A DNA stretch of 64,000 nucleotides, taken from Deltaproteobacteria bacterium (GTDB lineage Bacteria; Bdellovibrionota; Bdellovibrionia; Bdellovibrionales; Bdellovibrionaceae). The notes beneath the pieces are model-generated. The model was given only the letters and a program-made list of their open reading frames with translations, did no database searches and was not told the origin of the DNA. Positions 53,252 to 56,789 of this stretch are shown here, in pieces (the first letter of the stretch is position 1; each line of letters opens with the position of its first letter). The DNA lies in the NCBI GenBank assembly GCA_017302835.1, contig JAFLCC010000003.1:124001-188000 (forward strand). The letters are read 5' to 3'. A program made the position numbers and the translations under genes.

Positions 53252-53369
53252 TCAAAGTCGGAATTTTTACTTAGTGATTCCACCTTGTTTTTAAAGGATG
53301 ATAAAATCTAAGGAACAGGAACCTGGGGAACAATGTGGAATCACTTTATCTTACATATGGGGGAGTTTT

Positions 53370-54377
53370 ATGAGTGTGATGGGAGCAAAGCAAGGAACAA
53401 AGTCTTTTGGTCAAACGCAAACAGCGCCAGTTTCTCAAAACTCGATTTCTAGTAATTTGTCAGCAGGAGACATGAAAAAATTGGCAGGGGAGGATGTGGG
53501 CGATGTCTTAAATAAAGTCGCTGATCCTAATTGGATTGATCCTGGAAAAAAAATGAGAACTGCAGGTAATGATAAGATGGACAAGGATGCTTTTTTTAAA
53601 CTCATGTTAACACAAATGAAAAATCAAGATCCCATGAATCCAATGCAGTCTCATGAAATGGCAGCCCAGTTGGCTAGTTTTACTTCTCTTGAGCAAATGC
53701 AAAACATGAATAAAACCTTAACCGAGATCAGCAATGCACAGAAGCCTGCAGAGCAGTTTCAAGTTTTACAGTTCTTAGGAAAAACAGTATCAGGAGACTC
53801 GTCAAAAATTTTCAGAGCCAAAGGAGATAAGGATCATGATATTTTATTTGATTTACCAATGAATGCAAGAGAAGCCGAGATTAAAGTAAAAAATGCGGAT
53901 GGAGAGTTAGTCAGGACTTATAAGCTGAGCAACTTAAAGCAAGGTTCAAATCGATTAGCTTGGAATGGCATGGATGAAAAGGGAACGATTTTACCCGAAG
54001 GGGAATATCAATATTCAGTGGAAGCAAGAAATGACCAAGATAAAAAAATCGCAATTAAAACAGATTTTGAGGGTGCCATTACTGGAGTTAATTACACCAA
54101 GGAGGGGCCCGTTCTGATGGTTGGAAATCAAACCGTCCGTCTTCGAGATGTGAAAAAAATACAGAATGAAAATAAACCAACTGAAAATTCAGCACTTCCA
54201 ACTCAGACACCTACAACTCAGACGCCCACAACTCAGACGCCCACAACTCAAGCACCGCAAGCGCCAGTGACAGCAAAAACGCAAGGAGCTCCTGTCGCTC
54301 CTCCAAAATCAAAGTTATTAGAGCAGGTTGGACTGTCCTCAGAAATGATGGCTAAAATTGCAAAAGAAACAAATTAA
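53370..54377 (+). CDS. flgD: Flagellar hook capping protein FlgD
   Basis: 335 residues from ATG 53370 (after GGGGGAG); an upstream in-frame ATG at 53298 has no site. FlgD core FFKLMLTQMKNQDPMNPMQS and the FlgD Ig-like part NRLAWNGMDEKGTILPEGEY. Near the end a repeated TQTPT unit forms a tandem repeat (54190-54250). Scaffold for hook polymerisation. Confidence 0.88.
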   Translation: MSVMGAKQGTKSFGQTQTAPVSQNSISSNLSAGDMKKLAGEDVGDVLNKVADPNWIDPGKKMRTAGNDKMDKDAFFKLMLTQMKNQDPMNPMQSHEMAAQLASFTSLEQMQNMNKTLTEISNAQKPAEQFQVLQFLGKTVSGDSSKIFRAKGDKDHDILFDLPMNAREAEIKVKNADGELVRTYKLSNLKQGSNRLAWNGMDEKGTILPEGEYQYSVEARNDQDKKIAIKTDFEGAITGVNYTKEGPVLMVGNQTVRLRDVKKIQNENKPTENSALPTQTPTTQTPTTQTPTTQAPQAPVTAKTQGAPVAPPKSKLLEQVGLSSEMMAKIAKETN

Positions 54378-54425: not shown

Positions 54426-54860
54426 ATGAGTCAAGAGGGATTGGTTTGGCGGGAATGCAGTAGTTGTAAAAAAGAAATAAATTATAATTCAAAATACTAT
54501 GAATGCAGTGTTTCTACTTGTGGTGGGCATCGAACAGGCTACGTGTTTTGTTCAATTCCTTGCTGGGAGAGACACTTACCAGGAGCTAAACATCGAGATG
54601 CCGCAGCGGTGGAAAAGGTGGCACGTCGAATCGTGGTTACAAATACTTCAATCCAAGCTCCTCTACATAAAAAGGCAGATCAAGAAATTCTTGTGGTGGT
54701 CTCTAAAGTTAAATCTTATATCAAGGCTCAAGCTGATATGAATGTTTCAGATGATATCATGGAGACTTTATCTCAACGAATTCGTTTCTTCTGCGATGAG
54801 GCTATAAAGAAAGCCCAAAGCGATGGGCGTAAAACAGTACTAGATAGAGATCTACGATAG
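54426..54860 (+). CDS. Zinc-finger plus histone-fold protein
   Basis: 144 residues. Eight potential zinc ligands (Cys 11, 14, 27, 32, 42, 46; His 50, 56) form a cross-brace like a ZZ/MYND-type finger. From about 84 to 144 lies a histone fold: ILVVVSKVKSYIKAQ, SDDIMETLSQRIRFFCDEAI and a closing SDGRKTVLDRDLR, very like the bacterial histone fold of Bdellovibrio. Located after flgD by 49 bases, it has its own ribosome site (AGAGGAAATA). Function in the flagellar operon is unknown; DNA-binding is likely. Confidence 0.8.
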   Translation: MSQEGLVWRECSSCKKEINYNSKYYECSVSTCGGHRTGYVFCSIPCWERHLPGAKHRDAAAVEKVARRIVVTNTSIQAPLHKKADQEILVVVSKVKSYIKAQADMNVSDDIMETLSQRIRFFCDEAIKKAQSDGRKTVLDRDLR

Positions 54861-54965: not shown

Positions 54966-55400
54966 ATGGATATAAAAAAGATCGGTCAGCTAGATACATT
55001 AATGCCAAATCCTGTAGGGAAGAATTACATTCCCGGTCAGGGGCCTTCTTTTAAGGAAACCTTAGCTAAGACTTCACCTACAGAAACTTCAAAACTTGAT
55101 TTGAAAAAAAGTTTGCAAGGTCTGCAAAACTTAGGAGTTGTTGATACCGGAATAAAGTTTTCAAATCATGCCATCGATAGAATGAATTCTCGGGGAATTT
55201 CGTTTAAGCAAGAGGATCTCAGCAAATTGAATGAAGCTGTAGATAGAGCTGCGAGTAAGGGGAGTAAAGATTCCTTAATTTTAATGAATGATACGGCTCT
55301 TATCGTGAGCGTGAAAAATAGAACTGTCGTAACCGTGATGGACAAAGCCACCTTAAAGGAAAACGTTTTCACGAATATTGATAGTACAATTGTGATGTAA
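54966..55400 (+). CDS. Flagellar operon protein (TIGR02530-like)
   Basis: 144 residues. The second half IKFSNHAIDRMNSRGISFKQ, KGSKDSLILMNDTALIVSVK and NRTVVTVMDKATLKENVFTN is the highly conserved family found upstream of flgE. It has no assigned biochemical role. The first half is variable. Confidence 0.85.
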   Translation: MDIKKIGQLDTLMPNPVGKNYIPGQGPSFKETLAKTSPTETSKLDLKKSLQGLQNLGVVDTGIKFSNHAIDRMNSRGISFKQEDLSKLNEAVDRAASKGSKDSLILMNDTALIVSVKNRTVVTVMDKATLKENVFTNIDSTIVM

Positions 55401-55505: not shown

Positions 55506-56789
55506 ATGGGTATTCTTTCGTCTCTTTACACCGGTGTATCAGGAATGACAGCACAGGGTGAAGCCTTAGGTGTTATCGGTGATAACATAGCCAACGCTAA
55601 CACAATTGGATTTAAAGCCTCAAGAGCTGAGTTTCAAGATATTATTTCAAAAAATTTAAAAGGGATATTGGGTGGAAATCAAATTGGGCGAGGGGTGAAA
55701 ATCGGCGCGGTAAATCCTATATTAGTGCAAGGTAATGTGGATGCTACCGAGAAAGTGACTGATCTTGCGATATCTGGTGATGGCTATTTTAAAGTTAAGG
55801 GAAGCGACGGGGAATCCTTTACACGAGATGGTTCTTTTCACTTCGATAAAGAAGGGAACTTGGTAACCAATGATAATCAAAGGGTTCAAGGGTTTATGAC
55901 AGATGAGAAGGGAAATATTTTAAACAAACTTGGGGATATAAAATTTCCTAGGGCTTTGATTCCAGCAAAGGGGACTCAAGAGCTTAAATTAGATTTAAAT
56001 TTAGACTCCAGATTTGAACCTAATAAAAAATTTAATATTGAAGACCCGTATTCGACATCTCATTACTCTACAGGAGTTGAGATCTATGATACCCAAGGGA
56101 ATAAGCATTTGGTTTCCTTTTTCTTTAATAAGGTTGCAGACCGTAAATGGGAATATAAAGGACTTGTTGATGGTAAAGAAGCCAGTGGTGGGGAAGCAGG
56201 TAAATTGGCTGAGGTCTGCGCCGGAAAGTTGGAATTTACCGAAGATGGAAAATTAAACAAGCAAGAATTAACTGATTCTATGTTCAATTTTTCAGGAGGA
56301 GCTCAACAAAATCAAAAAATTAAAATTACTTTTGGAGATGCCATTTCCGAAGGCGGCAAGGGGATTGAGGGAACTAAGCAATACGGAAAAAGTTCGGATT
56401 TAATTTCTTGGCATCAAAATGGAGCTGCTGCGGGAACCATCACAGGCCTATCTTTCAATGATGATGGCGTCTTAACCGCCGTATATTCAAATGGACAGGC
56501 AGCTGATTTAGCCCAAATATCGCTAGCTAAGTTTGAAAATGCCGAAGCCATGTTCAAGGTGGGGAACAACCGTTTAAAAGAATCAAGGGATTCAGGAGGT
56601 CCTTCCATGGGCTCACCTGGAAGCGCAGGTCGTGGAAAAATTTATGCAAAGTCCTTAGAAAGATCCACTGTGGATATTGCCACTGAATTTGTTAACATGA
56701 TTCAAAATCAAAGAGGGTTTCAGGCCAATGCCAAGACCATTACAACAACAGATGAGCTTTTAAATGAGGTTATCCAGCTCAAACGTTAA
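55506..56789 (+). CDS. flgE: Flagellar hook protein FlgE
   Basis: 427 residues. N-terminal SLYTGVSGMTAQGEALGVIG, NANTIGFKASRAEFQ, and C-terminal EFVNMIQNQRGFQANAKTIT with TTTDELLNEVIQL. Builds the hook. Preceded by a GGAGG site and followed by a strong terminator. Confidence 0.95.
   Translation: MGILSSLYTGVSGMTAQGEALGVIGDNIANANTIGFKASRAEFQDIISKNLKGILGGNQIGRGVKIGAVNPILVQGNVDATEKVTDLAISGDGYFKVKGSDGESFTRDGSFHFDKEGNLVTNDNQRVQGFMTDEKGNILNKLGDIKFPRALIPAKGTQELKLDLNLDSRFEPNKKFNIEDPYSTSHYSTGVEIYDTQGNKHLVSFFFNKVADRKWEYKGLVDGKEASGGEAGKLAEVCAGKLEFTEDGKLNKQELTDSMFNFSGGAQQNQKIKITFGDAISEGGKGIEGTKQYGKSSDLISWHQNGAAAGTITGLSFNDDGVLTAVYSNGQAADLAQISLAKFENAEAMFKVGNNRLKESRDSGGPSMGSPGSAGRGKIYAKSLERSTVDIATEFVNMIQNQRGFQANAKTITTTDELLNEVIQLKR

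Follow-up and report, generated by a model that had tools for sequence, protein, structure and literature searches.

A ZZ histone gene among the flagellar hook genes of one genus of Bdellovibrionaceae: domain conservation, genomic setting and possible function

Bacterial histones constitute a recent field of research, and the ZZ histones, which carry a zinc finger ahead of the histone fold, are a subfamily within it. A gene for such a protein lies among the flagellar hook genes in a stretch of 64,000 nucleotides (hereafter, the window) from a member of Bdellovibrionaceae (contig JAFLCC010000003.1), which raises the question of whether its position tells us what the protein does, or whether protein and position call for separate explanations. 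A preliminary description of the locus, made from the sequence, had proposed a link between DNA compaction and flagellar gene control. In this work, we analyzed the two domains of the protein, its family, and the setting of its gene across related and unrelated genomes.

The gene, its neighbours and the histone fold

The four genes of interest are encoded on the forward strand in the order flgD, ZZ-histone gene, TIGR02530 gene and flgE, and the features considered here are the following:

53298..54377, + strand, flgD, hook-capping protein, upstream neighbour (PF03963, 1e-20; PF13860)
54426..54860, + strand, ZZ-histone gene, 144 aa with zinc finger, linker and histone fold (open reading frame and translation, ATG start)
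54447..54617, + strand, N-terminal zinc finger, residues 8-64, candidate ligands C11, C14, C27, C32, C42, C46, H50 and H56
54618..54680, + strand, variable linker, residues 65-85, with an RRI[VI] motif at 67-70
54681..54857, + strand, HBb-like histone fold, residues 86-144, with RD clamp R135/D142 and DNA-contact equivalents S93, K94, K96, S108, K136, T137 and R141
54966..55400, + strand, TIGR02530 flagellar protein, downstream neighbour (TIGR02530, 7.8e-38; PF12611, 8e-11)
55506..56789, + strand, flgE, hook protein (PF07559, 9e-21; PF06429; PF00460)

The gene had been placed between flgD and flgE, and it is indeed flanked by both, but it does not adjoin flgE, because the TIGR02530 gene sits in between. 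The gap from flgD measures 48 nt in the window and 8 nt in four congeners; this close spacing on the same strand suggests that in this genus the gene is probably co-transcribed with the flagellar operon. Rfam and tRNA scans of the whole window returned no matches, and promoter and terminator scans around the gene gave counts similar to those of shuffled sequence. In within-genus comparisons, dN across the whole gene was 0.008-0.25 and dS was mostly saturated; purifying selection on the gene is strong, and since both domains are kept across the order and dN lies far below dS, this is a real gene, far beyond chance.

The 144-aa product, whose C-terminal end reads ...SDGRKTVLDRDLR, joins a zinc finger and a histone fold in a single protein, as the preliminary description had it. 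Pfam and NCBIfam searches with the protein gave histone matches that were all below threshold, and nothing else. Residues 87-143 match HBb/Bd0055 (PDB 8cmp/8fvx) with an E-value of about 5e-10, the identity of the histone part to this protein is 46% over 57 residues, and its family-profile match to HBb (Bd0055) reaches 2e-18. The three-helix histone fold that had been anticipated appeared in the AlphaFold2 prediction (20 homologues), with helices at 83-103, 109-132 and 140-143 and a pLDDT of about 80-90 from about residue 91 onward, and HBb structures were the top structural matches of the predicted fold in both Foldseek and VIA-align (for the latter, Z 6.9 over 57 residues at 1.7 A).

HBb contacts DNA through T8, S9, K10, K12, T23, S24, A25, K52, T53 and R57 (PMC11317129), and the equivalents in the window protein are V92, S93, K94, K96, V107, S108, D109, K136, T137 and R141, that is, 7 of the 10 are identical and the positions of T8, T23 and A25 differ. 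The RD clamp is kept (R135/D142, corresponding to HBb R51/D58), and so is D133 (HBb D49). The R, T and D of the RKT motif (R135, K136, T137 and D142, spaced RKTxxxxD) occur in 40 of 41 relatives, with one gap, and the K in 38 of 41. Because the HBb contact residues, the RD clamp and D133 are retained, the histone domain of the window protein likely binds DNA. With the clamp, most DNA contacts and 46% identity, this domain resembles HBb as represented by PDB entries 8cmp, 8fvx, 9ezz and 9f0e; unlike HBb, which has neither finger nor linker, the window protein carries about 80 N-terminal residues, including the finger, ahead of the histone fold.

The zinc finger and the ZZ histone family

Across 41 sequences, seven of the eight candidate zinc ligands never vary and C42 is present in 40, while across 70 diverse finger sequences, gathered with a pattern requiring these ligands, all eight are invariant. 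Residues W8, V29, S30 and F41 are likewise invariant in all 70 and, furthermore, K15, I18, T31, R36, P52, A61 and E63 are fixed in most of them; among closer relatives, K15, I18, T31, R36, G38, P52, A54 and A61 are invariant or nearly so. The finger is conserved no less strongly than the histone part. Within the genus, conservation extends to both domains but not to the linker: the linkers of the window protein and of congener G003 show identities of 0.21-0.38 to those of the other congeners, and residues 71-80 were predicted with pLDDT below 50, although R68 is found in 39 of 41 sequences. The protein comprises, in sum, an HBb-like fold, a variable linker and a strongly conserved two-site finger, the latter present in one copy per genome beside a short histone.

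Predicted on its own, the finger reached a pLDDT of 83. Its Foldseek matches were all weak and led by ZZ and MYND domains (BIG ZZ domain first, E 0.22), and VIA-align gave Z 5.0 at most, with the p62 and HERC2 ZZ domains at about 3.6-4.2. Pfam searches with the 70 finger sequences produced weak, mixed matches (C1, VATC, FLZ, FCS, HIT), and ZZ was absent among the matches listed (25 of the 27 weak ones). The finger resembles eukaryotic ZZ domains (HERC2, p62, p300, BIG, PRT1) in its predicted cross-brace zinc fold and in these recurring weak structural matches; unlike them, it shows a spacing (C-x4-C, C-x3-C-x3-H-x5-H) that also resembles MYND, HIT and FCS, the similarity being weak. ZZ is used here as the published name. 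Eukaryotic ZZ binding-pocket residues are reported as not conserved in the bacterial finger (PMC11390915).

The suggestion that zinc-finger histones might form a family led to a published one. ZZ histones have been described as proteins of the alpha3 subfamily with an N-terminal C4 plus C2H2 finger and a C-terminal bacterial-dimer-like fold (Schwab et al., 2024, PMC11390915), and the product of the window gene belongs to this kind, probably together with Bd3044 of B. bacteriovorus. The published ligand profile is C10 C13 C41 C43 / C26 C31 H49 H55 (PMC11390915), and the window ligands C11 C14 C42 C46 / C27 C32 H50 H56 equal these positions plus one, with the fourth Cys as the exception at +3 (C46, with CxxxC spacing), leaving the printed C43 without a literal match. 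The window protein further shares with ZZ histones the bacterial-dimer-like fold, the single copy beside a short histone and the motif given as RKTxxxD, the RKTxxxxD spacing being printed in the same paper for nucleosomal histones. Its linker is shorter than in most ZZ-histone relatives (144 aa in total vs. about 150-195). Bacterial dimer histones are short single folds with no extra domain, and the window protein falls outside that class; a separate short HBb-type histone is encoded elsewhere in the window genome (G000:C1:284729-284908).

Two histones are known from Bdellovibrio bacteriovorus: Bd0055 (HBb), which is abundant in chromatin, and Bd3044, which is longer, less abundant and said not to substitute readily for Bd0055 (PMC10627809). 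The ZZ histone of this species is described as low in abundance (PMC11390915). Bd3044 is presumably the ZZ histone of strain HD100 and the counterpart of the window protein, an assignment that rests on papers describing a second, longer histone and, with no locus tag given, an HD100 ZZ histone. According to one review, deletion of both histone genes is lethal (PMC11318664); the failed deletions found in the primary paper concern bd0055 (PMC10627809).

A genome-wide scan yielded 465 confirmed relatives, those with names belonging to Bdellovibrionota, Myxococcota, Binatota and others. A histone match of some kind was found in 99 of 100 related genomes and the full finger-histone protein in about 40, and in the phylum sample the finger occurred in 133 of 282 Bdellovibrionota genomes, in one copy each except for one fragment. 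In addition, proteins of 74-138 aa with the finger and no histone fold were read in 19 genomes, and about 27 of the 133 finger-bearing Bdellovibrionota genomes (about a fifth) encode this form, many of them with a separate histone match too. The available text of the ZZ-histone literature makes no mention of such finger-only proteins. Since the finger occurs without a histone fold, it suggests a function of its own. Many finger-only C-termini read [VI]ILRR, resembling the linker RRI[IV] of ZZ histones (L185-L204; for instance L185:4366, - strand, and L186:4121, + strand).

The flagellar location across genomes

The ZZ-histone gene lies directly 3' of flgD in all six genomes of the genus. The downstream flagellar genes can be read in four of these (the window, G003, G005 and G002), since two contigs end just past the ZZ-histone gene. 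Outside the genus, linkage to flgD was seen in none of 75 named ZZ-histone loci and in none of 35 further loci from relatives, with neighbours identified by BLAST against the window proteins, so that diverged flagellar genes may be missed, and with many loci on short contigs. The conserved position that the preliminary description had asked about thus holds throughout the genus and, in the loci examined, stops at its border. In other genera, the 24 relatives whose locus is readable have flgD followed directly by the TIGR02530 gene and flgE with no histone gene, which is the ancestral order, and in closed genomes of a related genus the ZZ-histone gene and flgE are about 358-380 kb apart.

In a tree of 76 sequences, the proteins from the flagellar locus formed one clade (support 100/100) inside the Bdellovibrionota ZZ histones. 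This single clade, the empty site in the 24 relatives and the presence of the gene in all six genomes point to a single event, apparently an insertion that placed the gene 3' of flgD and 5' of the TIGR02530 gene in the common ancestor of the genus. In the same tree, a sequence labelled Streptomyces griseus (L080) grouped with the Bdellovibrionota ZZ histones, and is probably a mislabelled record or part of a contaminated bin.

Conversely, 51 near-complete relatives carry flgD and lack a ZZ histone, and of 20 single ZZ-histone genomes from outside Bdellovibrionota, whose completeness is not known, 6 showed no Flg_bbr_C gene; together, these observations indicate that an association with flagella is neither needed nor general. 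Presence of the ZZ histone and of flgD, tallied from tables, showed no association (p 0.53), in a test of low power because nearly all genomes carry flgD. The flagellar setting of a ZZ histone is new relative to the literature that we found, but it is confined to one genus; it sets the window copy apart from other ZZ histones. The proposed connection of DNA compaction with flagellar control finds no support as a general one, since the flagellar siting is limited to this genus and seems to have arisen by one insertion.

Outside the genus, we found no widely shared ZZ-histone neighbours and no conserved neighbours related to metal homeostasis; the largest neighbour groups were a signalling-domain family, at 10 loci and in varying positions, and a subtilase-like secreted protease. 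The latter is encoded directly downstream, about 290-320 bp away, at five related loci (L076, L090, L091, L095 and L106). In L113, flgF/flgG-like rod genes (685-2304) lie about 6 kb from the ZZ histone on the opposite strand, probably by chance. Within the genus, flgE of G002 is split in two open reading frames (L046:4575-5902), possibly through an assembly error. A PF10136 'site-specific recombinase' gene separates the ZZ-histone and TIGR02530 genes in some congeners, directly following the former (L043:10320-12281, E 4e-134; L046:6699-8648); we considered it as a mobile-cassette partner and rejected it, as neither the window nor G003 has it there and homologues of greater divergence occur elsewhere in many genomes.

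Possible function of the protein

We consider it reasonably probable that the protein is an accessory histone that binds DNA and, through its finger, docks a conserved partner, and that its gene moved once into the flagellar operon without taking on a flagellar role. By analogy with HBb, the histone domain would dimerise, and would bind and bend DNA without sequence preference, and a flexible linker would join it to the finger. The finger would act as a protein-docking module, because its non-metal residues are as fixed as its ligands and because it also occurs alone, although it could equally bind nucleic acid rather than protein. With the finger docking a protein and the histone domain on DNA, the protein would bring one conserved partner to DNA, or would mark sites in chromatin for that partner. 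After its single insertion downstream of flgD and ahead of the TIGR02530 gene, in the genus ancestor, the gene would now probably be expressed with the flagellar operon and would have no part in the building or regulation of the flagellum.

The retained HBb-like contact residues, the abundance of HBb in chromatin and the many genomes holding a ZZ histone alongside a short histone would also suit a general nucleoid protein, namely a second, minor histone compacting the chromosome, in which the finger adds DNA affinity or multimerisation and recruits no partner. We regard this as rather unlikely: the ZZ histone of B. bacteriovorus is reportedly of low abundance and Bd3044 reportedly no ready replacement for Bd0055, the conservation of non-ligand finger residues exceeds the need of a DNA-affinity patch, and the finger is missing from about half of the Bdellovibrionota sample. 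That the eight fixed Cys/His ligands of a C-rich finger joined to a DNA-binding fold form a zinc- or redox-responsive sensor, with zinc loss or Cys oxidation switching DNA binding by the histone, is extremely improbable given the lack of conserved metal-homeostasis neighbours and the finger-only proteins with no DNA-binding fold to switch; moreover, two-site cross-brace fingers with both zinc sites fully ligated are usually structural.

A regulator that binds DNA and controls the flagellar operon, acting on the flgD/flgE or other flagellar promoters, would fit the fixed position after flgD in the genus, on the same strand and with short gaps. Its position is absent, however, from every other lineage examined, the distribution described above runs against it on both sides (ZZ histones where no Flg_bbr_C gene was found, in genomes of unstated completeness, and flgD with no ZZ histone), and the protein of the genus has no new domain, its histone and finger matching those of relatives; we therefore hold this explanation to be very improbable. 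A role in flagellar expression specific to this genus may exist, but the position among flagellar genes most plausibly reflects a relocation that changed expression, and should not be taken as evidence for function.

Through the move of the gene into the hook operon, a chromatin protein could have become subject to flagellar gene control, and remodelling of the nucleoid would then keep pace with flagellum building and the motile phase; this seems distinctly unlikely, and if true, it would be the first bacterial histone with expression wired to motility. The insertion in this genus, while no proof of a connection between flagella and chromatin, offers a natural example of a change in the expression context of a histone gene. 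For the family as a whole, a finger that is conserved no less than the histone part and that also occurs as a stand-alone protein makes the partner of the finger the key question.
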